NCBI GenBank assembly: GCA_005878835.1
Contig: VBMV01000057.1
Span: 1 to 64,000 of the forward strand
Direction of reading: 5' to 3'
DNA: 64,000 nt
Source: Gammaproteobacteria bacterium
GTDB taxonomy: Bacteria > Pseudomonadota > Gammaproteobacteria > Steroidobacterales > Steroidobacteraceae
Positions 4,050-47,190 of the stretch are shown here, piece after piece. Under the pieces are notes generated by a model. It did not search any database, had not been told where the DNA came from, and saw only the letters and a program-made list of their open reading frames with translations. The position numbers were made by a program, and so were the translations under genes. The number at the start of each line of letters is the position of its first letter. The stretch's first letter is position 1.

Positions 4050-4946
4050 TCAAGCGGTGAGAAGGCCCCGCAGCCGCAAGGCCTCACGCATCGAGGTGAA
4101 GGCAAATTCAGCGAGCACGCGCCGCAGCCGGCCCTCGCAGCGCTCCAGACCCGTGTAGTGACGGAAGCGCGAGAACGCGCCCACCCGGATGCGCGGCTGT
4201 CCGGGATCCACCTCCCAGGGGTGCAGATAGAAAGTGAAGGGGCGGCCGCGGCGCTCGATCTGCTTCAGGCCCGCACGCGTCAGCCAGTACGGCAGGATAC
4301 GGAAATAGCCGCCGCCGGAGACCGGCACCTGCACGCCCAGGAACTTCGCCGCCGACATGGGAAACTCCACCAGCGTGCGTCCGGAGGGTGCGCTCAGGCG
4401 GTTGGGTTCCGGTGCCGCACCGGGCAACCCGTAGCGATCGTGACGGATGGGGAAAATTGAGGAGTCGTAACGGAAGCCGAGATCGATCAGCACATCGAGC
4501 GCCCACAGCGAGGCACGCGTCACCGAGAAGCTCGCCGCCCGGTAGCCGAGCACCGCCTGCCCGATGATGTCCTCGAGACACTCCTTGGCGCGCGTGGTCT
4601 CCTCGCGAAACTCCTGCGGGGATTGCCGGTAAACCAGCTGGTGCGAGAAGCCGTGGCAGGCGATCTCGTGACCGGCTTGCGCGATGCGTCGCACCAACCC
4701 CGGGGAGCGGCCGGCCACCCAGCCGAGCACGAAGAAGGTGCCGTGCACTTGACGCTCGGCGAGCAGCGCGAGCAGGCGCTCGGTGTTGGCCTCGACCCGA
4801 TACTCGCGCGTGGCCCAGCTGTCGCGGGTGATGACGGAGGAGAGCGCGGCGACGTGAAAGTAATCCTCGACGTCGACCGTGAACGCGTTGACCTGGCGCG
4901 CCGCGCAAGGCGCGGCCGAGGGCTGAGCGGTGAGGCCGGGACTCAT
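4050..4946 (-). CDS. Polysaccharide deacetylase of the XrtA/PEP-CTERM type
   Basis: A 298-residue NodB-fold deacetylase. The opening NAFTVDVEDYFHV is the hallmark of the PEP-CTERM-locus deacetylase family with its DUF3473 C-terminal part. The second metal site motif follows as HGFSHQ, and FYLHPWE ends the catalytic domain. It would remove N-acetyl groups from the exopolysaccharide, probably at the membrane or in the periplasm, although no signal peptide is evident. It runs convergently to the LtaS-like gene with only 4 bp between the stops. In many XrtA clusters this gene sits inside the operon; here it lies apart, on the other strand. Confidence 0.9.
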   Translation of the reverse strand: MSPGLTAQPSAAPCAARQVNAFTVDVEDYFHVAALSSVITRDSWATREYRVEANTERLLALLAERQVHGTFFVLGWVAGRSPGLVRRIAQAGHEIACHGFSHQLVYRQSPQEFREETTRAKECLEDIIGQAVLGYRAASFSVTRASLWALDVLIDLGFRYDSSIFPIRHDRYGLPGAAPEPNRLSAPSGRTLVEFPMSAAKFLGVQVPVSGGGYFRILPYWLTRAGLKQIERRGRPFTFYLHPWEVDPGQPRIRVGAFSRFRHYTGLERCEGRLRRVLAEFAFTSMREALRLRGLLTA

Positions 4947-5034: not shown

Positions 5035-5352
5035 TCAGTCTGTCAGGGCGCGTCGGGCCTGCACTGTCTTGCGGCGGCGGCTGACGCTGTATAGCCCCAG
5101 ACCGCCGAGCCCCAGCGCCAGCAGCGCCAGCGTGTCCGGCTCCGGTACCGAAACGGACCCCGGGCCGCTGCCCTGGTCCTCGGCGTCATCGTCGTCCTTG
5201 TTGATCGCGTGGTCGCGCCCGGGCCATTTGTCGTGGGCCTCGTGCGCGCCAGGCACGTTTTCGCGCGCGGACCCGGCCGCCGCCGGCAGGCTCCACACGG
5301 CCGCCAGTGTGGCGAGGCTCGCCATCCCAGCGATCAAACCAAGCTTCCTCAT
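5035..5352 (-). CDS. Small PEP-CTERM exported protein
   Basis: A 105-residue secreted protein. It has a signal peptide (1-26), an acidic low-complexity middle (NKDDDDAEDQ), and a complete PEP-CTERM tail: VPEPDT at residues 69-74, a hydrophobic helix, then SRRRK. Exosortase A is expected to recognise and cleave this tail during export. The start is fixed by a strong ribosome site, GGAGGTGA, 4 bp before the ATG; an in-frame ATG 16 codons upstream has no such site. It is the only recognisable XrtA substrate in the window. A sigma-54 promoter candidate lies about 45 bp upstream. Its function is unknown; such proteins are usually extracellular matrix components. Confidence 0.88.
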   Translation of the reverse strand: MRKLGLIAGMASLATLAAVWSLPAAAGSARENVPGAHEAHDKWPGRDHAINKDDDDAEDQGSGPGSVSVPEPDTLALLALGLGGLGLYSVSRRRKTVQARRALTD

Positions 5353-5395
5353 CGCGTCACCTCCACTGTCCGTCCCTGACTGGCCCATAGGATCC

Positions 5396-5411
5396 AGCAA
5401 ACACCATGCCT
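5396..5411 (-). promoter_or_regulatory. Sigma-54 promoter candidate for the PEP-CTERM gene
   Basis: The reverse strand reads AGGCATGGTGTTTGCT. GG and GC are exactly 10 bases apart, fitting the TGGCACG-N4-TTGCW consensus at GGCA, G and TTGCT. Transcription would start near 5385, leaving a leader of about 33 bases that holds the GGAGGTGA site. Confidence 0.65.
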
Positions 5412-5484
5412 GATTGCCTGTGTTTCCAGTCCCGCCAGCGACTTGAAAGCTGTCTGTGACATAAGACGCCTGGGCTCGCGCTCA

Positions 5485-5504
5485 AGACTGTAAGCCCCGC
5501 CGAC
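5485..5504 (-). promoter_or_regulatory. Possible PrsR upstream activator site A
   Basis: The reverse strand reads GTCGGCGGGGCTTACAGTCT. It begins 94 bases before the -24 GG of the PEP-CTERM promoter and shares GTCGGC and a late GTC with sites B and C (11 of 20 positions with each). It is the weakest of the three copies. Confidence 0.35.
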
Positions 5505-5709
5505 GTGAGCTGCATCACAAGGCTAGCAACGGCGGGCGGCAGGGAGCGTGCAATGCAACATAACCTCCCATTCCAGCAGGCCCGCAAAGCCATCCCAGGC
5601 TGACGCAGGCCGCCCGTCCGACGCCGCATTGTCGGCCGGCAGCGACGAGGGCTTTAACAATAAAAATCAAAGCTTTGGACTACATAAGCCCTCAAGCTCC
5701 GGCTCAGAC

Positions 5710-5729
5710 GTCGGCGTGCTGCGACGTCG
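5710..5729 (+). promoter_or_regulatory. Possible PrsR upstream activator site B
   Basis: The site reads GTCGGCGTGCTGCGACGTCG, 103 bases before the -24 GG of the lipoprotein promoter. It matches site C at 14 of 20 positions. A direct repeat GACGTCGGCG occurs at 5707 and 5723, so two half-overlapping copies may be present, as enhancer-binding proteins often need. Confidence 0.45.
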
Positions 5730-5811
5730 GCGAGCGTCCTACGGGCCCCGAGAGCAGTCAGGGAGGGAGAGGTTATACGTAACCCATTGAGATATCACTA
5801 ATTATCGAGGT

Positions 5812-5827
5812 CGGCACGCACCTTGCA
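5812..5827 (+). promoter_or_regulatory. Near-perfect sigma-54 promoter before the lipoprotein/xrtA genes
   Basis: The element CGGCACGCACCTTGCA differs from TGGCACG-N4-TTGCW only at its first base, and GG and GC are 10 bases apart. Transcription would begin near 5838, about 107 bases before the lipoprotein start. Because only 63 bp separate that gene from xrtA, this promoter may also serve the export operon. Confidence 0.75.
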
Positions 5828-5944
5828 GTACCCAGCCCGTCTGCTGCTCTGCGGTCCGCTTGTCCGCCGGAAGCAGCTCCATTGAGACATGACAGCTGGT
5901 GGCCCCGTTGCATGGGCCACGAGTGGGGGTTTGTGCTTTTGAAT

Positions 5945-6418
5945 ATGAAATTGACTGGCGTCTTCGTGCTCGTCGCATGCGTGCTGGCGGGCTGTGGCCA
6001 CGTTCCGATCAGTGCGTCCACTACGGATCCCTCAACCACAGCCGCCGCCACCACCAGCCCACCGGCGCCGAGCCCGTCGCCGATCCCACCGCCGCCCCCG
6101 CCGCCGCCGCCCCCGCCGCCGCCGCCCCCGCCGCCGCCGCCCCCGCCGCCGCCGCCCACCAGCGGCACCGCGACGCTCTCCTGGCTGGCGCCGACCACCA
6201 ATACCGACGGCGCCCCGCTCACCGACCTCGCGGGCTACGTCATCTACTACGGCACCAGTGCCACTGCCCTGAGCGGCACCATCCAGCTCACGAGTGTCGG
6301 GCTCCAGACCTACGTGATCCCGAACCTGACACCGGGTACCTGGTACTTCGCCGTCAAGGCCGTCGCCAGCACCGGCGTCGAGAGCGCCCTGTCAGTCATC
6401 GTCAGCAAGACGGTCTAG
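5945..6418 (+). CDS. Polyproline/fibronectin type III lipoprotein
   Basis: A 157-residue lipoprotein. The start is placed at the ATG of MKLTGVF because a signal peptide with lipobox LAGC follows at once; an upstream in-frame ATG would add 21 residues with no signal. A Ser/Thr/Ala/Pro linker leads into 24 consecutive prolines (codons 6086-6157). A single fibronectin type III-like domain of about 85 residues follows (GTATLSWLAP ... YVIYYGT ... VKAVASTGVES). The mature protein would be anchored in the envelope with the domain held out on a stiff proline rod. It heads the xrtA transcription unit. No enzyme motif is seen; adhesion or glycan contact is a guess. Confidence 0.8.
   Translation: MKLTGVFVLVACVLAGCGHVPISASTTDPSTTAAATTSPPAPSPSPIPPPPPPPPPPPPPPPPPPPPPPPPTSGTATLSWLAPTTNTDGAPLTDLAGYVIYYGTSATALSGTIQLTSVGLQTYVIPNLTPGTWYFAVKAVASTGVESALSVIVSKTV
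6098..6157 (+). repeat. Four perfect tandem copies of a 15-bp proline-coding unit
   Basis: The unit is CCG CCG CCG CCG CCC, repeated four times without error, preceded by a partial copy. It encodes most of the 24-proline run. Perfect short tandem repeats of this kind can change copy number by slippage, in steps of five prolines without frameshift. Confidence 0.95.
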
Positions 6419-6426
6419 TCACAGCG

Positions 6427-6442
6427 GGGCGCGCTTGCGCCC
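6427..6442. other. 6-bp inverted repeat between lipoprotein and xrtA
   Basis: GGGCGC and GCGCCC flank a GCTT loop just after the lipoprotein stop. There is no T-run, so it is more likely an mRNA processing or attenuation hairpin than a terminator, if it matters at all. Confidence 0.4.
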
Positions 6443-6481
6443 GGTGAGCCTTTCCGACGACGTAAGATCGGGACGGTGAGC

Positions 6482-7957
6482 ATGACCGGTCTCTCGCGCA
6501 CCCGTGTTGCGCCTCTGTGGACGCTGCTGGCCCTGGCGCTGCTCGTGACGCTCGTCTATTGGCCAAGTCCGGCGGTCTACTGCGAGCAGTGGCTGGACTT
6601 CGTGAACATCACCTACACGCACGGGTGGTTGGTCCTGGCCGTGTGCGTTGCGGTGCTGGTGCGGTCGCGGCGGGAAATGGCTGCGGCGCCGGTGCAATTC
6701 TCGCCCCCGGCCCTGTTCGGGCTCGCCGGCTGCATCCTCGCGTGGCTGGTGTGCTACCGGGCCAGCATTCAGGATCTGCACATCACCCTATTCCCCCTGA
6801 TCTTCTGGCTAGCCGTCACGGCAACGTTCGGTCTGCGCACCGGCCTGCTGCTGACTTTCCCGGTGGCGTTTTTCTACCTCGCCGTGCCGTCCTGGTCGCA
6901 GCTCGGCAACTCTCTGCAGGAGCTCACGGTGTTCGCCCTGCGCGGGTTTTTCTGGCTCACGGGTCCCGAGGTGCTGATCTTTGGCGAGACCATCCACATC
7001 CCCAACGGCTCCTTCGTGATCGAGGAAGGCTGCAGCGGCCTGCATTTCATGATCGTGGGACTCGCGGTGGCGGCGCTGCACGGTGAGCTGCGGCGCGACC
7101 CCTGGAGAGTCCGCATCGCGCAGCTGGCGCTGATGGCGAGCCTCGCGCTGCTGGCGAACTGGGTGCGCGTGTATACGGTCATCGAGGCGGGCTATCTCAC
7201 CGACATGCGCAGCTACCTCGTGAGCGTGAGTCACTACTGGTTCGGCTGGGGCGTGTTTGCGGTGGCACTGGTGTTTTTTTTCGCTCTCACGACGCTCTAC
7301 GGGCCGCGCGAGCCGGCTCACAAACCGCCGCTGCCACCCGTTGACCCCGGCCCGCCTGCGCCGCTCGCGGGGCTCGCCGCCACGGTTGTGGTGCTGGTGG
7401 CGCTGCCAGCCGTGAGCTGGGGACTGCGCACCCTGCAGCCGGCGCCGGCCCTGAGCGCCGCGCTCCCCTCGAGTCCGCGCGCGCCCTGGTCGTCGGCGCC
7501 CGCTGACACACTTTCTTCCTGGCGGCCGGCATTCCCAGGCGCCGATCAGGAACAACGATTCGCGTATACCAACACCAGCGGCAACGCCGTGGAGGTATTC
7601 AGGGTGGCCTACCGCACTCAGCGCCAGGGAGCGAAGCTGGTCGGCATGCGGACCAGCGTCACGGGTAAGGGATTGAGGCTGCGCTCCGAGGAGGACATCG
7701 ACACCGCGCGGGGCGCGTTTCGCGAGACCGAGGTCGCCGACCGTTCGGGCGCGCGCTCCCTCATCTGGTATCGCTACGAGACCGCGGGACGGGCCTTTGT
7801 CAGACCGCTCGCCGCGCAGCTGTGGTACGGGATCAACGCGATCGTGTCGCATCCGCCGGCCGCCCTGATCGCCTATCGAGCGGCATGCGGCGAGGGCGAG
7901 GATTGCGCGGATGCGCGCCACCTGCTGCGTGAGTTCCTCGCGAGTGCAACCTTCTGA
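6482..7957 (+). CDS. xrtA: Exosortase A with fused C-terminal EpsI domain
   Basis: A 491-residue polytopic membrane protein. The first ~280 residues carry about eight hydrophobic segments with the exosortase triad: Cys184 in EEGCSGLHF, Arg229 in ANWVRVY and His251 in SHYWFGWG. The C-terminal ~200 residues form the periplasmic EpsI (DUF3485) domain that is fused to exosortase in many XrtA systems. The family is thought to cleave and sort PEP-CTERM proteins and hand them to the surface, together with exopolysaccharide made by the same locus. A GTG six bases upstream is an alternative start. It is first in the export block, directly ahead of the Wza/Wzz-like genes. Confidence 0.93.
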   Translation: MTGLSRTRVAPLWTLLALALLVTLVYWPSPAVYCEQWLDFVNITYTHGWLVLAVCVAVLVRSRREMAAAPVQFSPPALFGLAGCILAWLVCYRASIQDLHITLFPLIFWLAVTATFGLRTGLLLTFPVAFFYLAVPSWSQLGNSLQELTVFALRGFFWLTGPEVLIFGETIHIPNGSFVIEEGCSGLHFMIVGLAVAALHGELRRDPWRVRIAQLALMASLALLANWVRVYTVIEAGYLTDMRSYLVSVSHYWFGWGVFAVALVFFFALTTLYGPREPAHKPPLPPVDPGPPAPLAGLAATVVVLVALPAVSWGLRTLQPAPALSAALPSSPRAPWSSAPADTLSSWRPAFPGADQEQRFAYTNTSGNAVEVFRVAYRTQRQGAKLVGMRTSVTGKGLRLRSEEDIDTARGAFRETEVADRSGARSLIWYRYETAGRAFVRPLAAQLWYGINAIVSHPPAALIAYRAACGEGEDCADARHLLREFLASATF

Positions 7958-20736: not shown

Positions 20737-21719
20737 ACGGAGCCCTCGCGCTCACGTGGTTCGAGCATCGGCGCACGAAGGAGCTGTGCGCAGGTTTGGG
20801 CATCGAGCTCGTGGTCCTCGCCAGCGCGCTGCGCGGGCCGCTGCGCTATGTCGCGCTCGGCGGGCGCACGCTTGCGCTGCTGGCGCGGCGCCGTCCGCAG
20901 ATTCTGCTGGTGCAGAATCCGTCGCTGATTCTGGCCGCGCTGGCCGCCGCAGTCCGCGGTGTGCTTGGTTACAGACTCATCGCGGACGCCCACAACGAGG
21001 CCGTGGTTCCGTTCATCAATCGCCAGCGGTGGGTGACCCGGCTGTCGCGCTGGGTGATTCGCCGCGCGGACCTGACCATCGTCAGCAACCGCCAACTTGC
21101 CGAGCGCGTCGTGCGGCACGGCGGCAGGGCGTTCACGCTTCCCGACCGCGTACCGGCGCCACCGCCTGCGCCCCGGCGCACACTCGACGGCGCATTCAAC
21201 GTCGTGCTCATCGCCACTTTTGCCCCCGATGAGCCCGTCGCCGAGGTGCTCGAGGCCGTGCGCGGTGTGGAAGTCGAGCTATACGTGACGGGGGATCAGC
21301 GCAAGCTGCACGGGGCTGTCGCCGCCACAGTGCCGGCGAACGTGCACTTCACCGGGTTTCTCGGCGAGCTCGATTACTGGAGCCTGTTGCGATCGGCGGA
21401 CGCGATCGTCGATCTGACGCTCATGGACGATTGTCTGGTATGTGGTTCTTACGAAGCCCTCGCGCTCGGCAAGCCGATGCTCCTGTCGAGCAACTCCGCC
21501 AGCGTGGAATTGTTCGGCGACTGCGCCGTGTTCACGAACAACACCGTAGGGGACATTCGCGCGGCGCTCGGGCGCTTGCGGCTGGAGCAGGTGCGTCTGC
21601 ATGCGGCCGCCGAACGCAAGCGCGGCGAGCTCGTGGACCTGTGGACCGCGAGCGCCCGCTCGCTGGGCGGGCTCCTCGCCCGGCCCCGCGCGCGCGCCGG
21701 ATCCGGGCTAGTGAACTGA
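20733..21719 (+). CDS. Glycosyltransferase, GT-B (group 1-like)
   Basis: A 328-residue GT-B-like protein that starts inside the stop of the amidotransferase gene. An acceptor-binding half (PQILLVQNPSLI, ADAHNEAV) is followed by a nucleotide-binding half with DDCLVCGSYEALALGKPM, a diverged form of the group 1 E-x7-E region. It lacks the usual long GT4 N-terminus, so it belongs to a short subfamily seen in exopolysaccharide clusters. It ends the forward-strand block and overlaps, by 12 bp, the end of the convergent secreted-protein gene. Confidence 0.8.
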   Translation: MNGALALTWFEHRRTKELCAGLGIELVVLASALRGPLRYVALGGRTLALLARRRPQILLVQNPSLILAALAAAVRGVLGYRLIADAHNEAVVPFINRQRWVTRLSRWVIRRADLTIVSNRQLAERVVRHGGRAFTLPDRVPAPPPAPRRTLDGAFNVVLIATFAPDEPVAEVLEAVRGVEVELYVTGDQRKLHGAVAATVPANVHFTGFLGELDYWSLLRSADAIVDLTLMDDCLVCGSYEALALGKPMLLSSNSASVELFGDCAVFTNNTVGDIRAALGRLRLEQVRLHAAAERKRGELVDLWTASARSLGGLLARPRARAGSGLVN

Positions 21720-22862
21720 GATCGACGAGGGCGGGTTCGGAGTGGCAATGGTCCCGCCCGCCGTGACGGCGAGACCGATGGCGCTGGCGGTTCCCGATGA
21801 GTCAACCACGATCACAAATGCGGTCTGACCCTGAGCGAACTGTCCGAGGTTGACCGTGGCGGTGATCGAGCCGTCGCTCCACGCGCTCGGGATCTGATTT
21901 TCGATGATGGTGGCCTGACTCAGCACCGGCTTGTCGGCGAGCACCACGCGCGACAGCGTCGTATCCACATACGCGTCGTCAAAGTAGCGCCAGTTGCCGC
22001 TGAAGCCCTGCGCGCGGGCGTAGCCACCGATACCGATGGTCCGCTGCGTGCCGGGATACTTGTCCGTCGCGCCGGCGTAGTTCACCACCTGCTGGCCGTT
22101 CTCCCACACCTTCACGTAGCCATCCGTCTGGTTGGTCAGTCTGGCCGCGATTTCCACCTTCGACCACTTGCCGCCCATGGGATTGACCGCGGGGTTCCAC
22201 CAGAAGCTGTGCGCGTTGGTGTCGGGATTCTGCATGGACGAACCGTCATCGTTGATCACCCACTGGGCACTGTCGGTGGTGCTGCCGGGGTGCGGCGGAC
22301 CGTAGGCCGCGTACCAGTTGTTCGGCATCTCATACGGGCTGCAGCAGTTCGAGTACGCAAACGTCTTGAGGTTGTTGTCACCGCTGAAGGTCCACTTGTC
22401 GTCGGCGCGCTGGTACCAGCTCGCGTAGATGTAGAACGGAAACGGCTGCAGCGGGATGTTCTTGAAGAAGATGACGTTGTAGCCGGAGTATGCCCCGGTG
22501 CTCGCCGCGTGCGCCCCCGCAATGTAGCGCGCGTCATGACTGTGCGGTGGATTTATGCCGCGCATCGGGCTGTAGTAGCCCGTGTTGTACCCTGGGAGCT
22601 GGTTAGGCCACGCACCGTCCCATTTGGCGGACAGGGTGCTGGCGGTGGCGTCGTCCCAGACGACCGGGGCGGCGTTGGTTTTCGAGCCGAACCCGATGCC
22701 GCTGATCGTGATGGTGCCCTTGTGAGTCAGTGTGCCGCTGACCTGGCGGACGATGGGCGCGCTCAGCGCCGCTGCGCTACCCGCGATCAGCCCGAGCCCG
22801 ATCAGGGCGCTCAGCGCAACCCGAAAGGAGATCCACACTCGCTGCGGCATGTCGCTCTGCAT
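21708..22862 (-). CDS. Secreted lectin-like protein with IPT/TIG-like N-terminal domain
   Basis: A 384-residue secreted protein I cannot name. It has a signal peptide (hydrophobic core FRVALSALIGLGLIAGSAAAL), an IPT/TIG-like strand region (GTLTHKGTITISGIGFGSK), and a ~230-residue part rich in Trp/Tyr/Asn that resembles concanavalin-like lectin or polysaccharide-binding jelly rolls (FPFYIYASWYQR, WVINDDGSS, YVKVWENGQQVVNY). No PEP-CTERM tail is present. The ATG after CGGAG is preferred to in-frame starts upstream. It has a sigma-54 promoter candidate like those of the PEP-CTERM and lipoprotein genes, which ties it to the exopolysaccharide programme. Confidence 0.75.
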   Translation of the reverse strand: MQSDMPQRVWISFRVALSALIGLGLIAGSAAALSAPIVRQVSGTLTHKGTITISGIGFGSKTNAAPVVWDDATASTLSAKWDGAWPNQLPGYNTGYYSPMRGINPPHSHDARYIAGAHAASTGAYSGYNVIFFKNIPLQPFPFYIYASWYQRADDKWTFSGDNNLKTFAYSNCCSPYEMPNNWYAAYGPPHPGSTTDSAQWVINDDGSSMQNPDTNAHSFWWNPAVNPMGGKWSKVEIAARLTNQTDGYVKVWENGQQVVNYAGATDKYPGTQRTIGIGGYARAQGFSGNWRYFDDAYVDTTLSRVVLADKPVLSQATIIENQIPSAWSDGSITATVNLGQFAQGQTAFVIVVDSSGTASAIGLAVTAGGTIATPNPPSSISVH

Positions 22863-22912: not shown

Positions 22913-22929
22913 GTGCAGGATTCATGCCG
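22913..22929 (-). promoter_or_regulatory. Sigma-54 promoter candidate for the secreted lectin-like gene
   Basis: The reverse strand reads CGGCATGAATCCTGCAC, with GG and GC exactly 10 bases apart. It shares GGCATG with the PEP-CTERM promoter. The expected transcription start near 22903 gives a 40-base leader, close to the spacing seen at the PEP-CTERM gene. Confidence 0.6.
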
Positions 22930-23020: not shown

Positions 23021-23040
23021 GGGACGTCGGCACCTGCCGA
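23021..23040 (-). promoter_or_regulatory. Possible PrsR upstream activator site C
   Basis: GTCGGC and GCCGAC form a perfect six-base inverted repeat around four bases. The reverse strand reads GTCGGCAGGTGCCGACGTCC, beginning 112 bases before the -24 GG. It matches site B at 14 of 20 positions. Confidence 0.45.
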
Positions 23041-23138
23041 CAGTCGTGATCACCCGGCGGGCGGGAACGTTCGGATGTCTTTGTAATCGCTACCCATTCC
23101 TTGTCGCTGTGCCGCGACGGTTACGACAAATCCGCGCG

Positions 23139-39780: not shown

Positions 39781-41187
39781 ATGCGCATCCGCGTTCTCGG
39801 ACAACACGTGCCCGCTTCCCTTGCCGTGCTTGCGCTCATCGAGGTCGGTCTGGCGTTCCTGGCGGTGTACGCGGCAGTCCTGCTGCGCTTTCAGACCCGC
39901 TTCAGCCACTTGTCGAACCTGGAGCGGGAGCTGGGCCCGCTGTGGCCGCGGGGGCTGGTGTTCAGCGCGATCGTGGGTGTCTGTCTGCTTGCTTTCGGCC
40001 TGTACAGCTCGCGCCAGCGCGCGCCGATCGGGGGCATTTTCCTGCGCCTGGCGGTGGCGCTGGTGGTGGCCTCCTGCGCCATCGCCGCAGTCTTCTACCT
40101 GATCCCGAGCCTGCACCTGTGGCGCGGCGTGGCGGCGCTCGCCGTGCTCGGGACCGGTTGCGCGGTGCTCATCTCGCGCCTGGTGTTCGCGAGCGCCGTC
40201 GACCAGGAGATCTTCAAGCGGCGCGTACTGGTCTACGGCGCCGGCGCTGCCGCCGCCTCGGTCGCCAACCTGCGCCGCTCGGCGGACCGCCGCGGCTTTC
40301 TGCTGACCGGCTTCGTGTGCCCGCCGGACGAGGACCCGGAGGTTCCCCCGGAGCGGCTGCTCGATGCGAGCGGCGGCCTGCGCGAGCTGTGCGAGCGGCT
40401 CAATGTCAGCGAGGTGGTGGTGGCCATGGATGATCGGCGCCGCGGCTTCCCGTTGCGCGAGCTCCTGCAGTGCCGCCTCGCGGGGGTCGACGTCACGGAG
40501 CTGCTTTCCTTTCTCGAGCGCGAGACCGGGCGCGTGCGCATCGACGTGTTGAATCCGAGCTGGATGATCTTCGGCCACGGGTTCCGGCGCGATCCGCTGC
40601 GGCTGTTCTCCTCGCGCACCATGGATCTGCTCGCGAGCCTCGCCGTGCTCGCGGTGTCGCTGCCGTTCATGCTGCTCACCCTGATCGCCATCAAGATCGA
40701 GGACGGCTGGCGCGCGCCCGCGCTGTATTCCCAGTGCCGGGTGGGTCGCGGCGGGCGCACCTTCAGGGTGCTGAAGTTCCGCAGCATGCGCCTGGACGCG
40801 GAGCTCGAGGGCGCGCAGTGGGCGCAGCGCCAGGATCCACGCGTCACGCGCGTGGGCGCGATCATCAGGAAACTGCGGGTCGATGAGCTGCCGCAGGTGA
40901 TCAACGTGCTGCGCGGGCACATGAGCTTCGTCGGCCCGCGCCCCGAGCGCCCGGAATTCGTGGCGCACCTGGCGGAGGAGATCCCATACTACGTGCAGCG
41001 TCACTGCGTCAAACCCGGCATTACCGGCTGGGCGCAGCTGTGCTATCCGTACGGCTCATCCGAACAGGATGCGCTCGAGAAGCTGCAGTACGACTTGTAC
41101 TACATCAAGAACAATAGCCTGCTGTTTGATCTGGCTATCCTGGTCCAGACCGCCGAAGTGGTACTGCTCGGCAAGGGAGCGCGCTGA
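39781..41187 (+). CDS. Initiating sugar transferase of the PEP-CTERM/XrtA system
   Basis: A 468-residue polyprenyl-phosphate hexose-1-phosphate transferase. Four N-terminal membrane helices and a CoA-binding-like domain (LVYGAGAAAASVA) precede a fifth helix near residue 285. The catalytic domain then has KFRSMRLDAE, RKLRVDELPQVINVL and FVGPRPERPEF. The opening MRIRVLGQHVPASLAVL is typical of the PEP-CTERM-associated subgroup. It loads the first sugar onto undecaprenyl phosphate and so starts each repeat unit. The stop overlaps the start of prsR (TGATG). Confidence 0.92.
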   Translation: MRIRVLGQHVPASLAVLALIEVGLAFLAVYAAVLLRFQTRFSHLSNLERELGPLWPRGLVFSAIVGVCLLAFGLYSSRQRAPIGGIFLRLAVALVVASCAIAAVFYLIPSLHLWRGVAALAVLGTGCAVLISRLVFASAVDQEIFKRRVLVYGAGAAAASVANLRRSADRRGFLLTGFVCPPDEDPEVPPERLLDASGGLRELCERLNVSEVVVAMDDRRRGFPLRELLQCRLAGVDVTELLSFLERETGRVRIDVLNPSWMIFGHGFRRDPLRLFSSRTMDLLASLAVLAVSLPFMLLTLIAIKIEDGWRAPALYSQCRVGRGGRTFRVLKFRSMRLDAELEGAQWAQRQDPRVTRVGAIIRKLRVDELPQVINVLRGHMSFVGPRPERPEFVAHLAEEIPYYVQRHCVKPGITGWAQLCYPYGSSEQDALEKLQYDLYYIKNNSLLFDLAILVQTAEVVLLGKGAR

Positions 41188-42626
41188 TGGCCGCCGCGAT
41201 GCAGCGCCGGAAACTGCTGATCCTCGAGAACGATCGCGCCCTGCGGCGCGAGCTGGAAGCGGTGTTCTCGGATCTCGACGTGACCGCGTGCGAGACCTCC
41301 GATCAGACCCTCGCCATCGTGCGTCGCACCGAACCGGACGCGGTGCTGTTCGACCTGGGCGCGGCGGGCGAGCCGGCCGTGGCCGCACAGAGCCTGGAGC
41401 TGCTGCGCCAGATCCTCAATATCAGCCCCGACACCAAGATCATCGCCATGACCGAGCACGATGCGCGCGAGCTGTCGGTGGCCGCGGTCGGCCTCGGCGC
41501 GACCGATTTCTACCACAAGCCACTCGATGCCGGCGTGCTCTCGATCGTCGTGCGCCGCGCGCTGCGCATCCGCGAGCTCGAGGAGGAGAACTGGCGGCTG
41601 CGCGAGCGCACCGGCGCGATGGCGCTCGAGGGCGTCATCGGCGTCAGCGACACCATGAGGGGTGTGTGCCGCGCGATCGAGAAGGTCGCGCCGACCAACG
41701 CCACGGTGCTGCTGCTCGGAGACAGCGGCACCGGCAAGGAGGTGCTGGCGCGCAACCTGCACCGCCTCTCGGGCCGCGCGCACAAGCCCTTCGTCGCCAT
41801 CAACTGCGCGGCGATCCCCGACACGCTGCTCGAGAGCGAGCTGTTCGGATACGAGAAGGGCGCCTTCACCGGCGCCGCCAAGCGCACCGCCGGGAAGCTC
41901 GAGTCGGCCGAGGGCGGCACGGTGTTCCTCGATGAGATCGGCGAGATGCCCGCCTCACTGCAGGCCAAGCTCCTGCGCGTGGTGCAGGAGCGCACCGTGG
42001 AGCGCGTCGGCGGGCGTGTGCCGGTGGCGCTGGACTTTCGTCTGGTGTGCGCCACCAACCGCAAACTCGAAGCGCTGATCGGCAGCGGCGGCTTCCGCGA
42101 CGACCTGTTCTACCGCATCAGCGAGGTGACCATCCGCGTGCCGCCGCTGCGCGATCGGCAGGGCGACAGCCTCCTGCTGGCGCAATTCATCTTGCAGCAG
42201 CTCTCCGAGCGCTTCGGCAAGCCCACGCGCGGACTCGCGCCCGACGCCATCCGCGCGATCCAGGCGTATCGCTGGCCGGGAAACGTGCGCGAGCTGGAGA
42301 ACCGCATCAAGGGCGCGGTCATCATGGCCGAGGGCGCGGTCGTCACGGCGGGCGACCTGGGCCTGGAAGACCCGGGCGATGAGCCCGAGTACCTGAATCT
42401 GCGTGTCGCGCGCCAGCGCGCCGAGGCGCAGGCCGTCAGGCAGTCACTCGCCGTCGCCCGGGGGAACCTGTCGCGGGCGGCGGAGCTGCTCGGGGTGACC
42501 CGCCCGACGCTCTATGACCTGCTCGGCAAGCACGGTATCGATGCCGCGCAGTTCGGGCGCCACGCGCCGCCCGCGGCCGGCACTCCCGAGCTGCCGGCCA
42601 AGGACAACACCGGCAGCGGCGATTAG
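41187..42626 (+). CDS. prsR: PrsR, sigma-54-dependent response regulator of the PEP-CTERM system
   Basis: A 479-residue NtrC-type activator. The receiver domain (residues 6-125) has an Asp in VLFDLGA and the PEP-CTERM-type string AVGLGATDFYHKPLD. The AAA+ domain has Walker A GDSGTGKE, the sigma-54-contact GAFTGA loop (EKGAFTGAAKR) and Walker B GGTVFLDEIG. A Fis-type helix-turn-helix ends the protein (LSRAAELLGVTRPTLYDLLGKHGI). PrsR with RpoN is known to switch on PEP-CTERM genes in floc-forming bacteria. The expected sensor kinase PrsK is absent from the window. Its stop overlaps the stop of glrR. Confidence 0.93.
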   Translation: MAAAMQRRKLLILENDRALRRELEAVFSDLDVTACETSDQTLAIVRRTEPDAVLFDLGAAGEPAVAAQSLELLRQILNISPDTKIIAMTEHDARELSVAAVGLGATDFYHKPLDAGVLSIVVRRALRIRELEEENWRLRERTGAMALEGVIGVSDTMRGVCRAIEKVAPTNATVLLLGDSGTGKEVLARNLHRLSGRAHKPFVAINCAAIPDTLLESELFGYEKGAFTGAAKRTAGKLESAEGGTVFLDEIGEMPASLQAKLLRVVQERTVERVGGRVPVALDFRLVCATNRKLEALIGSGGFRDDLFYRISEVTIRVPPLRDRQGDSLLLAQFILQQLSERFGKPTRGLAPDAIRAIQAYRWPGNVRELENRIKGAVIMAEGAVVTAGDLGLEDPGDEPEYLNLRVARQRAEAQAVRQSLAVARGNLSRAAELLGVTRPTLYDLLGKHGIDAAQFGRHAPPAAGTPELPAKDNTGSGD

Positions 42627-43996
42627 CGCTGCTTGAACTCTTCCGGCGTCAGCTGGTGCCGCGCGAGGAGCTTGTAGAAATCGGTGCGGTTGCGCCGCGC
42701 CAGCCGCGCCGCCTGGCTCACGTTCCCGCCGGTGATCTGCAGGATCTGCGACAGGTAGCTGCGGGTGAACTCATCGCGCGCCTCGTCGAAGGAGGGCAGG
42801 CGCCCGGGGGTGCCGCCGAGTGACTGCTGCACCAGCTCCACCGGAATGATGGGCGTCTGGGAGAGCGCCACGTTCTGGCGCACCACGTTCTGCAGCTGGC
42901 GGATGTTGCCCGGCCAGTCGGCCGTGGCGAGCAGCTCCACCGCTTCGGGCGCGTAGATCTTGCGCACGCCGCTCTCCTTGGCGATCTGCGCCAGGAAGTG
43001 CGCCACCAGCAGCGGGATATCCTCGCGGCGGCGGTTGAGCGAGGGCATCTCGATGTGCACCACGTTCAGGCGGTAATACAGATCCTCGCGGAATTGCCCG
43101 ACGCTCATCAGCTGCTGCAGGTCGCGGTGCGTGGAGGAGATCACCCGCACGTTCACCGGGACGGCATCGGTGCTGCCCACCGGGCGGATGACGTTCTCCT
43201 GCAGCACGCGCAGCAGCTTCACCTGCAGCCGCATCGGCATGTCGCCGATCTCATCGAGCAGCAGCGTGCCGCCGTCGGCGGCCATGAACAGCCCGCGGTG
43301 CGCGCGCGTCGCGCCGGTGAACGAGCCTTTCTCGTGGCCGAACAGCTCCGACTCCAGCAGGTCCTCCGCCATGGCGCTGCAGTTGATGGCGACGAACGCC
43401 TTGTTGCGGCGCGGGCTGCCACGATGGATGGCGCGCGCCAGCAGCTCCTTGCCGCTGCCGCTCTCGCCGGTGATCAGTACGCGCGCATCGGTTCCCGCGA
43501 CCATGTGCGCCTGCGCGAGCTTCTCCTCCATGCTGGCGCTGCGCGTCACGATTTCCGCGCGCCAGTCCTCGTCCGAGGCGCCGAAGCCGGAGATCCGCAG
43601 CGCCTTCTGCACCTGGTCGAGAAGCTCCTGCTTGTCGACCGGCTTGGTGAGAAAGCCGAACGCCCCCATTTGCGTCGCCTGCACCGCATCCGGGATGGTG
43701 CCGTGGGCGGTGAGGATGATGACCTTCAGTCCCGGCCAGCGGTTCTGCAGCTCCTTGAGCAGTCCGATGCCGTCCATCTGGTCCATGCGCAGGTCCGTGA
43801 TCACCAGGTCGGGGCGGAAACGGCTCGATGCCGACAGCGCCTGCGCGGCGCTCTCCACCGCCTCGACGTCGTAACTCTCCGCGCGCAGGCGGATGGTCAG
43901 CAGGCGCAGCAGCCCCGGGTCATCGTCCACCAGGAGGATGCGGGCTTTGCGTTTGCCGGTCTGGTTCAGGATCGTGTCCTTGCTCACTGTGATCAT
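42623..43996 (-). CDS. glrR: GlrR/QseF-type sigma-54 response regulator
   Basis: A 457-residue NtrC-family regulator. The receiver carries Asp in [12 protein letters not shown] and [18 protein letters not shown], close to GlrR of enterobacteria. Walker A is GESGSGKE, the sigma-54 loop [11 protein letters not shown], Walker [12 protein letters not shown]; the C-terminal Fis-type domain ends with [16 protein letters not shown]. It starts within the qseG stop (ATGA) and acts downstream of GlrK. In E. coli GlrR drives the glmY small RNA gene and thereby amino-sugar supply, so a link to exopolysaccharide precursors is attractive but inferred. Confidence 0.92.
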
Positions 43997-44667
43997 CGTC
44001 CCGTGCTCCCGGGTTTGCGCTCGTTGAGCGAGCGCTCGATGTTGGCGATGGCGTCGAGTTTGGCGCGCGCCTCCTCGAGCTCCCTGCGCAGGCGGGTGTT
44101 TTCGTCCATCTCCGCCTGCAGGCGGTGGTTGGCGTTGGCCATGCGCTGCTGGTCGGCCCGCACCGCCTCACTCTGCAGCCTGCGATTTTCCGCATCGAGC
44201 GTCAAATGGTCGTCAATCTGCGAAAGCACCAGGAAGGCGAGCGCGCGCTCCCCGGGCAGCAGCATCTCCGGGTCCGCCATCAGCTCGCGCAGCAGCCCCT
44301 GGGCCCTGGGCAGGTCGGTCGCCGGGTGCCCCGGAGTGCCGAAAACCAGCGCCAGCTTCAGCTCGCGGCTGGGGGTCGGCGCGGTGTCGTAATCACGCTG
44401 TGCGCTGGCCACGATCTCCGCCTGCTCGGAGAGCTTACCCTGCACCAGATGCTGCAGCAGCAGCAGGTACTCATTCAGGACGGTCGAGCTCGCCGCCGCC
44501 GCATTCACCACCGGAGCGGGCGAGGGCGCGCGCTGGGGGCCGAAGGCGCAGCCGCAGGCGATGAGCGCCACGAGCGCGCCGCCCGCCGCGGTACCGCGCG
44601 ACGCACCCGGGGAGTCCCGTGTCACGGCGAGGCAGGCGGGCGGGATGCGCTCAGGCGGCATGGGCAT
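43993..44667 (-). CDS. qseG: QseG-like lipoprotein of the GlrK/GlrR system
   Basis: A 224-residue protein with a long N-terminal leader and lipobox LIAC. Helical repeats follow (NEYLLLLQHLVQGKLSEQ ... LALVFGTPGHPATDL), then a coiled-coil C-terminus (ENRRLQSEAVRADQQRMANA). Position and layout match QseG/YfhG, which contacts the sensor from the outer membrane. Starts at 44667 or 44661 are possible; the first has AAGG at a suitable distance. The gene begins inside the kinase gene and ends inside glrR. Confidence 0.82.
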   Translation of the reverse strand: MPMPPERIPPACLAVTRDSPGASRGTAAGGALVALIACGCAFGPQRAPSPAPVVNAAAASSTVLNEYLLLLQHLVQGKLSEQAEIVASAQRDYDTAPTPSRELKLALVFGTPGHPATDLPRAQGLLRELMADPEMLLPGERALAFLVLSQIDDHLTLDAENRRLQSEAVRADQQRMANANHRLQAEMDENTRLRRELEEARAKLDAIANIERSLNERKPGSTGR

Positions 44668-46147
44668 GCGCCTTGGGTTCGCGCCTGGCGGGGCGATCCC
44701 CGCTCGTGACCCTGATGGGCATGGTGATGCGGAAATGCGCACCCGGAAACTCGCCATCGACGATCTGCACGGTGCCGCCGTGCGCGCCCACGAACTCCAG
44801 CACCACCGACAGTCCGATCCCGGTGCCCTTCACAGGTGTGGTCTTGGCCGCGCGCCCGGTATAGAAGGCGTCGAACACGTGGCCGCGCTCCTCGGGCGGG
44901 ATGCCTGGGCCGTTGTCGGCCACGTCGAGCACCAGCTGCGCGCCCGTGGCCCGGGCCCGCAGGTGGATGGTGCCTCCCTTGGGCGAGTACTTGACGGCGT
45001 TCGACACCAGGTTCTCGAGGATGAGGCGGATCTTGCCGCGATCGGCGAGCAGGGTCACGTCCTCGACGCGTACATCGAGGCGCACCCGTTGCGACAGCAG
45101 CGTGAGCTGCTGGTTCTCCAGCACCTGTTTCACCAGTGGACGCAGGCGAAACTCGGTGGCCTCCAGGCCCACGCTGGAGGTCTGCCAGGCGCTGAAGGAC
45201 AACAGGTTCTCGATCATGCGCTGCAGCTTGATGCCGTTCTCGCGCAGGATCGCGGTCACCTCGCGCTGGTTGGAATCCAGCTCGCCCACCGCCCCGTCCA
45301 TCAGCAGCTCCGTGCCTTCGCGAATGTTGGCAAGGGGTGTCTTGAGCTCGTGCGACATGTGCCGCAGGAAGCGGTTGCGCTCGTGGGCGAGCTCGAGCAG
45401 CCGCTGGCGCAGCCACTCGAGCTGCCCGCCCAGGCGCTCGAGGTCATGCGGACCGGTAACGGCGATCGAGTTGGTGAAGGTGCCCTGGCCGAGCTCGCTG
45501 ATGGCGCGGTCGAGTTGCCGCAGCGGCCGGCCCACGCCCAGGGTCAACACGAACACCGCGACCACCGCGAGCGGCAGGAGCGGTGCGGCCTGCCACAGCA
45601 GGCGCTTGCGCGCCTGCAGGGTCTGCTCTTCCAGCGCGGCCACTTGCGTGTCCACCTGAGCGTTGCTCTGCTGCGCCACACGCTCCACCAGGGCGGACAG
45701 CTGGGTGAAACGGCTGGACAGGTCCGAGGCAACGGCGGCGCTGCTGCCTGGGGGCGCGCTCATGACCGTGTTGCGCAGGCTGCGTTGCAACACCCCGATC
45801 TCCTCGAGCGTGCTGCGGGCGTCGCTGGTGGCCTGCGAGTGCAGCTGTTCGCGCGTCGCGCTCAGGCGCTCGTCCTGCGTGCGGTACAGCTCGAGGAGCT
45901 TCGGGTCGCCGAGCACGTCGTACAGGCGCGCCGTGCGCTCGAGCGAGGCGATCTGCCCGAACAGCGCCTGGCTGGCGCGCGCGCCGGCGACGCCCTGAAC
46001 GACGATTTTCGTACCCGTGTCCGCCAGATCGCGGATCTGCAGCACGGCGGTGAGAATGGCGATCAGGAGCGGCACGGCGATCAACGCCAGGCCGACCAGC
46101 ATCAGTCCACTCAATGACTTGGGCCGCGCCCATCGCATGAAAGCCAT
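44651..46147 (-). CDS. glrK: GlrK/QseE-type sensor histidine kinase
   Basis: A 498-residue membrane kinase. A first transmembrane helix (LMLVGLALIAVPLLIAIL) and a second near residue 190 flank a ~150-residue periplasmic helical sensor. HAMP follows, then the H-box FLRHMSHELKTPLANI, N-box NLVSNAVKYSP and G-boxes DNGPGIPPEE and GTGIGL. The start is taken at MAFMRWAR, just upstream of the first helix. It phosphorylates GlrR. It lies downstream of galE on the same strand with 50 bp between. Confidence 0.92.
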   Translation of the reverse strand: MAFMRWARPKSLSGLMLVGLALIAVPLLIAILTAVLQIRDLADTGTKIVVQGVAGARASQALFGQIASLERTARLYDVLGDPKLLELYRTQDERLSATREQLHSQATSDARSTLEEIGVLQRSLRNTVMSAPPGSSAAVASDLSSRFTQLSALVERVAQQSNAQVDTQVAALEEQTLQARKRLLWQAAPLLPLAVVAVFVLTLGVGRPLRQLDRAISELGQGTFTNSIAVTGPHDLERLGGQLEWLRQRLLELAHERNRFLRHMSHELKTPLANIREGTELLMDGAVGELDSNQREVTAILRENGIKLQRMIENLLSFSAWQTSSVGLEATEFRLRPLVKQVLENQQLTLLSQRVRLDVRVEDVTLLADRGKIRLILENLVSNAVKYSPKGGTIHLRARATGAQLVLDVADNGPGIPPEERGHVFDAFYTGRAAKTTPVKGTGIGLSVVLEFVGAHGGTVQIVDGEFPGAHFRITMPIRVTSGDRPARREPKAHAHAA

Positions 46148-46197
46148 TCTACCGGGCGCACTGCCAACGTGTCTGGGATTGCAGGCGCGCGGGCGTC

Positions 46198-47190
46198 TCA
46201 CCAGGGCTCGCGCAGCAGCCGCTCCTCCCAGGCGAGCGCGCTGCGCACGATGCTGTCGAGATCGTCAAGGCGCGGGCGCCAGGCGAGCTCGGCCCGGATG
46301 CGATCGGCGCGCGCCACCAGCGCTCCGGGGTCCCCGGCCCGGCGCGGCTCCTCGCGAACCGCCAGCCGCTTTCCCGACACCCGCTCGACGCTCTGCAGAA
46401 CCTGCCGCACGCTGTAGCCGTGGCCGTAGCCGACGTTGAGAGTGATGGAGGCGCCGCCGCCTCGCAGGTAGCTCAGGGCATCCACGTGAGCCGCAGCCAG
46501 GTCCTCGACGTGGATGTAGTCGCGCACGCCGGTGCCATCGGGGGTCGGGTAGTCGGTGCCGAAGATCGCGACATGCGCTCGCTTGCCGAGCGCGGCTTCG
46601 CAGGCGACCTTGATCAGCAAGGTCGCGTTCGGGGTGGCCTGGCCGATGCGGCCACCGGTATCCGAGCCCGCCACGTTGAAGTAGCGCAGCGCCGCATAGC
46701 GCAGCGAGGCGGCGCGCGCCACGTCCGCGAGCATCCATTCCGACATGAGCTTGGAGGTGCCGTAGGGATTGATGGGGGCGGTCGGGGTGCTCTCGGCGGC
46801 AAAGCCCTCCGCCGGCACGCCGTAGACCGCGGCGCTGGAGGAAAACACGAAGTGCCGCACTTGCGCCTCGAGGCAGCACTCGAGCAGCGCGCCGGTCGCG
46901 CAGGTATTGTTGCGGTAGTACTTGAGCGGCTCGCGCACCGATTCCGGAACGATGGTGCAGGCGGCGAAATGCATCACCGTGTCGACGCCGTGCTGTTGCA
47001 GGAGGCCGCGCACCCGCTCGCGGTCGGCGACCGCGCCGACGATGAGGGGGGTGTCGAGGGCCGCCTGGCGAAAGCCGCGCGACAGGTCGTCCAGGATCAG
47101 CACCCGCTCGCCGCGCGCGCGCAATTGCAGGGCCACGTGACTGCCGATGTAGCCCGCGCCGCCGGTGACTAATATGCTGCCATGCTTCAT
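46198..47190 (-). CDS. galE: UDP-glucose 4-epimerase
   Basis: A 330-residue extended SDR. The NAD motif is TGGAGYIGSH; the active site has SSSAAVYG and YGTSK (Tyr-x3-Lys); FNVAGSD and YIHVEDLA are further GalE marks. It interconverts UDP-glucose and UDP-galactose, probably feeding the polysaccharide pathways. An open frame continues far upstream, but homology starts at MKHGSILVTGG. Its start lies only 9 bp from that of the divergent srkA. Confidence 0.93.
   Translation of the reverse strand: MKHGSILVTGGAGYIGSHVALQLRARGERVLILDDLSRGFRQAALDTPLIVGAVADRERVRGLLQQHGVDTVMHFAACTIVPESVREPLKYYRNNTCATGALLECCLEAQVRHFVFSSSAAVYGVPAEGFAAESTPTAPINPYGTSKLMSEWMLADVARAASLRYAALRYFNVAGSDTGGRIGQATPNATLLIKVACEAALGKRAHVAIFGTDYPTPDGTGVRDYIHVEDLAAAHVDALSYLRGGGASITLNVGYGHGYSVRQVLQSVERVSGKRLAVREEPRRAGDPGALVARADRIRAELAWRPRLDDLDSIVRSALAWEERLLREPW

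Follow-up and report, generated by a model that had tools for sequence, protein, structure and literature searches.

The region between a short PEP-CTERM gene and an FN3 lipoprotein gene in the DNA analysed here (the window, 64,000 nucleotides of a 74-kb contig from a draft genome of 4.18 Mb) probably holds two back-to-back sigma-54 promoters, each served by its own class of activator site, PrsR-type for the PEP-CTERM gene and GlrR-type for the lipoprotein gene. According to the proposed mechanism, PrsR would act on the PEP-CTERM promoter through a 17-mer, and GlrR (QseF), which is encoded near prsR with a kinase gene beside it, would bind paired GTC-N10-GAC dyads. Bound 80-180 bp upstream, GlrR would contact the sigma-54 polymerase by looping and so activate the lipoprotein gene; where this gene and xrtA nearly abut, read-through would also raise xrtA. 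The same GlrR would drive a secreted lyase-like gene at 21.7-22.9 kb.

The setting is that of an XrtA-type exosortase cluster. On the minus strand, an XrtA-system deacetylase gene (4050-4946) lies near the control region, together with the PEP-CTERM gene (5035..5352, 105 aa), the product of which is the single TIGR02595 match over the assembly (23.4 bits, cut-off 16). On the plus strand follow the FN3 lipoprotein gene (5945..6418), recognized by alignment and by a PF00041 score of 25.0 bits that equals the cut-off of 25, with a lipobox LAGC and a proline-rich stretch, and the gene of an XrtA-like exosortase fused to an EpsI domain (6476..7957). The best match of the latter is TIGR03109, at 167 bits below the cut-off of 208, and TIGR04178 (51 bits) and TIGR02914 (58.9 bits) are both over their cut-offs. 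The neighbours of the exosortase gene match the XrtA-system families TIGR03006, TIGR03007 and TIGR03027, each over its cut-off, and XrtA-system export and chain-length genes also surround the control region. Relatives of the lipoprotein in named records belong to Steroidobacter, Peristeroidobacter and Povalibacter, besides many gammaproteobacterial MAGs. Its proline-rich stretch varies in length and repeat among close relatives (window 6057-6160; 2140-2781 in locus L074 of genome G034), being a proline run in the window and composed of PPPPT-like repeats in G034.

A sequence-only reading of this DNA had described two outward-facing sigma-54-type elements, and both were confirmed with the pattern TGGCACG-N4-TTGCW, scored by mismatches and controlled by the reversed pattern. 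The minus-strand element AGGCATGGTGTTTGCT (5396..5411) has 2 mismatches and predicts a start at about 5385, which leaves 33 nt to the PEP-CTERM ATG (5352); the plus-strand element CGGCACGCACCTTGCA (5812..5827) has 1 mismatch and predicts a start at about 5838, with 107 nt to the lipoprotein ATG (5945). The assignment of these elements to sigma-54 is likely. Neither a sigma-70-like promoter nor an intrinsic terminator was found in 5300-6600.

Match counts were rejected as evidence for sigma-54 sites or dyads, being near or below chance. The plus element is the sole site with up to 1 mismatch in the window, at 0.75 expected by chance, and with up to 2 mismatches 9 sites were observed against 13.4 expected. 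The genome scan with this pattern that the sequence-only reading had suggested returned 40 sites with up to 1 mismatch compared to 30 in the reversed control, a count that proves nothing alone. Similarly, exact GTCGGN6GCGAC occurs 19 times in the genome versus 54 in the control (in the window 2 versus 0.83 expected), and the sigma-54-plus-dyad pattern gives 7 genome matches versus 9, of which the lipoprotein one alone is convincing. The paired-dyad pattern gives 5 strand-counted matches versus 4 in the control, at three places: the lipoprotein promoter, window positions 23026-23118, and C61, which was set aside as it lies within long open frames. Since match counts alone are not unusual, it is the context of the elements and their conservation that carry the argument. 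Among the 30 loci scanned of the 40 with up to 1 mismatch, full-match dyads stand at the lipoprotein promoter only, and a 1-mismatch PrsR-type 17-mer in one (L025).

Conservation is most evident for the plus promoter. In a set of 18 stretches from the xrtA loci of relatives plus the window, all 11 stretches with the lipoprotein gene carry a sigma-54 site with up to 2 mismatches before it, and none of the 8 without this gene has a convincing one (L070 and L077 show weak 2-mismatch sites, and the upstream DNA of L075 extends for about 0.1 kb only). In L073 the lipoprotein gene is opposite in direction to xrtA, and the promoter and dyads are still there. For these reasons the plus promoter is to be assigned to the lipoprotein gene rather than to xrtA. 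Counted with the window's xrtA start, the gap between the lipoprotein gene and xrtA is about 10-110 nt in the window, L062, L063 and L064, and about 180-340 nt in L065, L066, L068, L071 and L072; in the window, read-through into xrtA is plausible. In L074, from the close relative G034, the PEP-CTERM gene is missing and the lipoprotein promoter is kept with both dyads; no match to about the first 217 exosortase residues was found there, due either to real loss or to an assembly fault.

For the analysis of upstream sites, 20 lipoprotein promoters from 20 genomes were collected, 11 from the xrtA-locus stretches and 9 new ones from a search with the FN3 protein, which covered 79 distinct loci of the best 80 of 241 relatives. 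A sigma-54 site with up to 2 mismatches lies upstream in 20 of these 79 loci, and 18 of the 20 have an exact dyad. Three were left out as unlikely promoters (L215 and L256 without dyad; L240 with a dyad and a site 46 nt before the FN3 match), and the 17 retained consist of 8 repeats of loci already in the set and the 9 new ones. Related genomes are not independent, and two similar pairs are included in the set (L065/L066, L072/L279); L231 and L262, with dyad pairs at -92 and -91 of poorer sigma-54 matches, stand outside the 20.

An exact GTC-N10-GAC dyad was detected in all 20 lipoprotein promoters at -80 to -102, compared to 0.35 of 20 in shuffled upstream regions. It lies at -90 to -92 in 16 promoters, at -80/-81 in two and at -102 in two, three positions separated by about one helical turn. 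In nine of the 20 promoters a further exact dyad is present, at a distance of 79 bp in eight cases and of 78 bp in one. In the window the distal dyad GTCGGCCGGCAGCGAC (5631..5646, plus strand) and the proximal dyad GTCGGCGTGCTGCGAC (5710..5725, plus strand) are found at -181 and -102; the corresponding 16-bp pairs are placed at -91/-170 in L062, -81/-160 in L063 and -80/-159 in L064. The consensus over 33 dyads is YGTC(G/T)G-Y-N5-S-CGAC-R; like that of the 17-mer it was first derived from related promoters. In 12/12 promoters measured, AT content is higher in the 40 bases preceding the -24 box than in the remaining upstream DNA. IHF-like matches with 0-1 mismatches are present in 9 of 12 promoters, a raw count from which no role of IHF is claimed here. 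In the window, an inverted repeat, GGTTA-TACG-TAACC (5772-5785), lies in the AT-rich DNA that separates the plus promoter from the proximal dyad; it is not evident in the corresponding stretches of relatives inspected.

The PEP-CTERM promoters carry a different type of site. From a longer list, 30 PEP-CTERM loci of 19 genomes were taken; 18 of them have sigma-54-like sites with up to 2 mismatches (20 sites), the 12 others were excluded, and two promoters of the window's genome bring the set to 22. Among those listed, 18 of these 22 show, at -68 to -94, a 17-mer that departs from YGTCG-N6-TTTACA at no more than 2 positions (0.36 in shuffles). In the window, the 17-mer CGTCGGCGGGGCTTACA (5489..5505, minus strand) stands at -94 of the PEP-CTERM promoter with a spacer of 77 nt, and the window contains a single copy of its core GTCG-N6-YTTACA (5489-5504, minus strand; 0.07 expected). 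It fits motif 1 of Haft 2006, which in the available part of that paper is 17 nt long, ends in TTTACA and has a mean spacer of 62.8 nt with a range of 32-92 (PMC1569441); the window site and its spacer fall inside this range, the comparison being with the description of the motif in the text. Action of PrsR on the PEP-CTERM side, as the sequence-only reading had assumed, is therefore likely as judged from the site and its spacing. The pattern of 17-mer plus sigma-54 site has 4 genome matches and 0 in the reversed control; two of the four precede the PEP-CTERM gene or a shortened one, and those at C53 and C87 were set aside, lying within long open frames. The shortened PEP-CTERM-like ORF (L025 1551-1789, contig C98 of the window's genome) ends VPEPQTPALASP soon after VPEP, has neither the hydrophobic stretch nor the basic tail that usually follow, and carries the PrsR-type 17-mer and a sigma-54 site upstream.

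The divergent promoter pair itself is a minority arrangement. A PEP-CTERM ORF divergent to the lipoprotein gene was observed at 7 of 12 loci examined (window, L062, L063, L064, L068, L214, L217), and in two of these, the window and L063, a sigma-54 site is accompanied by the 17-mer, equally spaced in both; a sigma-54 site with up to 2 mismatches is absent from the PEP-CTERM side of the other five. The leaders of the PEP-CTERM genes in L062, L063 and L064 have GGTCAT(C/T)GGAGG in common, directly before the start-codon region, with related forms in L214 and L217 and less so in the window, and no conserved RNA fold was seen in the leaders examined. The absence of the PEP-CTERM-side element at 5 of 7 loci, as well as match counts not above chance, would agree with one or both -24/-12 elements being chance matches and other promoters being used. 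We regard this as very improbable, because 20 genomes share the plus element together with dyads at a fixed distance from it, the region 5300-6600 offered no sigma-70-like alternative, and the combined 17-mer and sigma-54 pattern is free of matches in the control, with two of its genome matches before a PEP-CTERM gene or shortened one.

Between the two sides, the site classes do not mix over 42 promoters (20 lipoprotein and 22 PEP-CTERM promoters among those listed). At -125 to -60, a PrsR-type 17-mer within 2 mismatches was found in none of the 20 lipoprotein promoters, window included, and GTC-N10-GAC in none of the 22 PEP-CTERM promoters among those listed. This bears on the proposal, made from the sequence alone, that PrsR switches on substrate and sortase together. 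Such activation of both promoters would be in line with two sigma-54-like promoters in one XrtA cluster with prsR, and since the half-site YGTCG is common to 17-mers and dyads, PrsR might bind both site types, reading the dyads in a second binding mode. However, the spacing differs (GT-N12-AC in the dyads, GT-N11-AC in the 17-mers), the right half is CGAC in the one and TTTACA in the other, the classes stay apart in the 42 promoters, and the dyads match the sites of another resident activator. We consider PrsR on both promoters unlikely. The joint switch by PrsR found no support, the site classes being different on the two sides, and on the lipoprotein side two dyads of the GlrR/QseF kind were found in place of a PrsR-type site. 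The evidence is better for a separate GlrR-type input at the lipoprotein/xrtA side, and probably the surface protein and its sorting enzyme are not under one same activator.

The properties of the two regulators were compared as well. The gene prsR (41187..42626, plus strand; TIGR02915 588 bits, cut-off 502.6) is indeed located about 35.4 kb from the control region, close to the distance of about 35 kb given before. Directly before it lies an EpsB_2 gene (39781-41187, TIGR03013 556 bits), and prsK is absent from its usual place beside prsR in the window. TIGR02915 scores form two groups, one of 587-603 bits (the window, G001, G002, G016, G019, G031, G034 and others) and one of 631-738 bits. 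A scan of the upstream gene, comprising 10 ORFs from 19 prsR loci, revealed PrsK in 6/6 loci scanned of the higher group and EpsB_2 in 4/4 of the lower, as in the window. In the receiver domain, the window PrsR and that of L127 read ENDRA, and six others compared read EDDPG or EDDTG. Asp, Thr and Lys are retained in the receiver pocket, and Asn replaces one of the acidic residues that coordinate Mg in receivers such as those of CheY and NtrC. A changed phospho-input of this PrsR is likely.

Tail-to-tail with prsR stands the glrR/qseF-like gene (42623..43996, minus strand). Over 442 aa, its product is 57% identical to the GlrR protein of E. coli, and NF011695 is the best family match, at 609 bits below the cut-off of 763. 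A possible QseG/YfhG-like lipoprotein gene (43993..44757, minus strand; PF13942 21.4 bits, below the cut-off of 27) and, in the position of glrK/qseE, a histidine kinase gene (44651..46201, minus strand; HisKA, HATPase_c) adjoin; no NCBIfam equivalog was over its cut-off for the kinase among 25 matches listed. The tail-to-tail arrangement of glrR and prsR within 6 kb was found in 9 of 22 genomes in which both were found (G000, G001, G002, G016, G017, G019, G034, G042, G056), and in three more genomes (G060, G061, G065). Matches to the GlrR C-terminal domain with 89-100% identity exist in 17 of the 20 lipoprotein genomes, GlrR not being found in G014, G024 and G029, and PrsR was found in 18 of the 20. 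These about equal numbers agree with PrsR acting on both promoters and leave co-occurrence uninformative for a decision between PrsR and GlrR. G018 and G027, drafts of 90-92% completeness in which no PrsR was found, have lipoprotein promoters with dyads, which speaks against that reading.

The assignment of the dyads to GlrR is our inference from a comparison with E. coli. QseF is reported, in the accessible parts of the sources, to bind three TGTN12ACA sites upstream of E. coli glmY (PMC6075780), the site being given elsewhere as TGTCN10GACA (PMC8745638). Upstream of glmY in E. coli K-12 we located TGTCTGTAAATCACGACA, TGTCGCTTTCTGGCGACA and TGTCTCTTTTTAGCGACA, N12 dyads with a GTC-N10-GAC core, at -202, -169 and -106 of the glmY sigma-54 element. 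The two window dyads both have this core, one of them the outer T and neither the outer A; over the 33 dyads, the outer bases of TGTN12ACA are present as T in 12 and as A in 13, and in none as both. In E. coli, the N12 dyads before rpoE lack the GTC/GAC core. This counts against the GlrR assignment, as do the relaxed outer bases, the three lipoprotein genomes in which GlrR was not found, and the half-site that the dyads have in common with the PrsR-type 17-mer. The recognition helix reads RNRT(D/E)FYKLL in the GlrR-like protein and in E. coli GlrR, alike bar one D/E, and VTRPTLYDLL in PrsR.

A third enhancer-binding protein, neither PrsR nor GlrR, might read the dyads instead. NtrC-family proteins are numerous in these genomes (63 first-look candidates in G000, for instance), the three lipoprotein genomes in which GlrR was not found would fit, and so would the departure of the outer dyad bases from the QseF consensus. 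On the other hand, the dyad core matches that of the glmY dyads, the recognition helix is nearly identical to that of E. coli GlrR, and the next-best genome match to the GlrR C-terminal domain is only 40% identical. We consider a third protein decidedly unlikely, and GlrR remains our candidate.

Measured from the PEP-CTERM element, the dyads lie at distances of about 220 and 300 bp. Enhancer-binding proteins can act over distances of about 220-300 bp, and symmetric dyads between two promoters at a workable distance could allow GlrR to help the PEP-CTERM promoter also, or PrsR to help the plus promoter, with partial co-regulation as the result. The retention of a divergent short PEP-CTERM gene beside the dyads in L062, L064, L214 and L217 can be seen in this light, although without a sigma-54 site of up to 2 mismatches GlrR cannot act on such a gene directly, and the fixed dyad distances hold for the lipoprotein promoter only. 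Shared control is a lesser possibility, to be kept in mind beside the separate inputs that we prefer.

A second GlrR-type target is predicted within the window. The gene of a secreted protein that weakly resembles polysaccharide lyases (21708..22862, minus strand; PF14099 26.2 bits, below the cut-off of 29.9) has an ORF that opens at 22925, its likely start at about 22862 being downstream of the predicted promoter. The weak sigma-54-like element CGGCATGAATCCTGCA (22914..22929, minus strand) has 3 mismatches, and a pair of GlrR/QseF-type dyads (23026..23041 and 23103..23118), 77 bp apart, lies at -112 and -189 of it. In G001, a relative with 63% identity is encoded behind a 2-mismatch element in the same place, with dyads at -103/-183 and thus 80 bp apart. 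A pair 78 bp apart precedes a poorer element without the -12 GC in G061.

Taken further, these observations suggest a wider scheme, which we hold to be about evenly balanced between right and wrong. GlrK/GlrR (QseEF), an envelope two-component system that enterobacteria are known to use for glmY and rpoE, would be a resident regulator of the exosortase/exopolysaccharide cluster in Steroidobacteraceae-related lineages. Via a spaced double enhancer it would drive the lyase-like exoprotein and the FN3 lipoprotein gene, which xrtA follows. PrsR, with no neighbouring kinase and one receiver acidic residue fewer, would keep the PEP-CTERM substrate, and the shared region would be a meeting point of two envelope signals, where the capacity to sort is set independently of the supply of substrate. 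Should GlrR control the genes on the sortase side, substrate and sortase would each have their own activator, and the predicted GlrR regulon would extend past glmY and rpoE to targets with defined DNA sites. A search of literature, largely other than subscription journals, turned up no paper that combines exosortase and GlrR, PEP-CTERM and QseF, or PrsR and GlrR.

The published link of sigma-54 and PrsR, as far as the accessible text goes, concerns PEP-CTERM substrates. Haft 2006 described upstream of PEP-CTERM genes a region with motif 1 and a sigma-54 motif 2, together with PrsK/PrsR (PMC1569441, available part). The PEP-CTERM side of the window resembles it in the 17-nt site ending in (T/C)TTACA, the 77-nt spacer, the -24/-12 element and PrsR in the cluster; it differs from what that text describes in that the lipoprotein/xrtA side is without motif 1 and prsK does not lie beside prsR, and only 2 of the 7 divergent PEP-CTERM genes studied here hold the arrangement. 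For pepA of Aquincola tertiaricarbonis, a start was mapped at a TGGCAC/CTGCTT element and was lost in an rpoN1 mutant, likewise a PEP-CTERM gene at a sigma-54-type element; the accessible text of that study covers the substrate only and reports neither a sigma-54 promoter of an exosortase gene nor GlrR (PMC9850573).

The lipoprotein side is best compared with QseE/QseG/QseF and glmY in E. coli. Common to both are GTC-N10-GAC dyads upstream of a sigma-54 element, and a regulator, 57% identical here, whose gene adjoins that of a kinase and a possible QseG-like gene. Unlike those of glmY, the window dyads have relaxed outer T/A bases, and they number two, 79 bp apart, where glmY has three. The predicted targets also differ from those of QseEF/GlrKR, being the FN3 lipoprotein, xrtA by read-through and the lyase-like exoprotein in place of glmY and rpoE.
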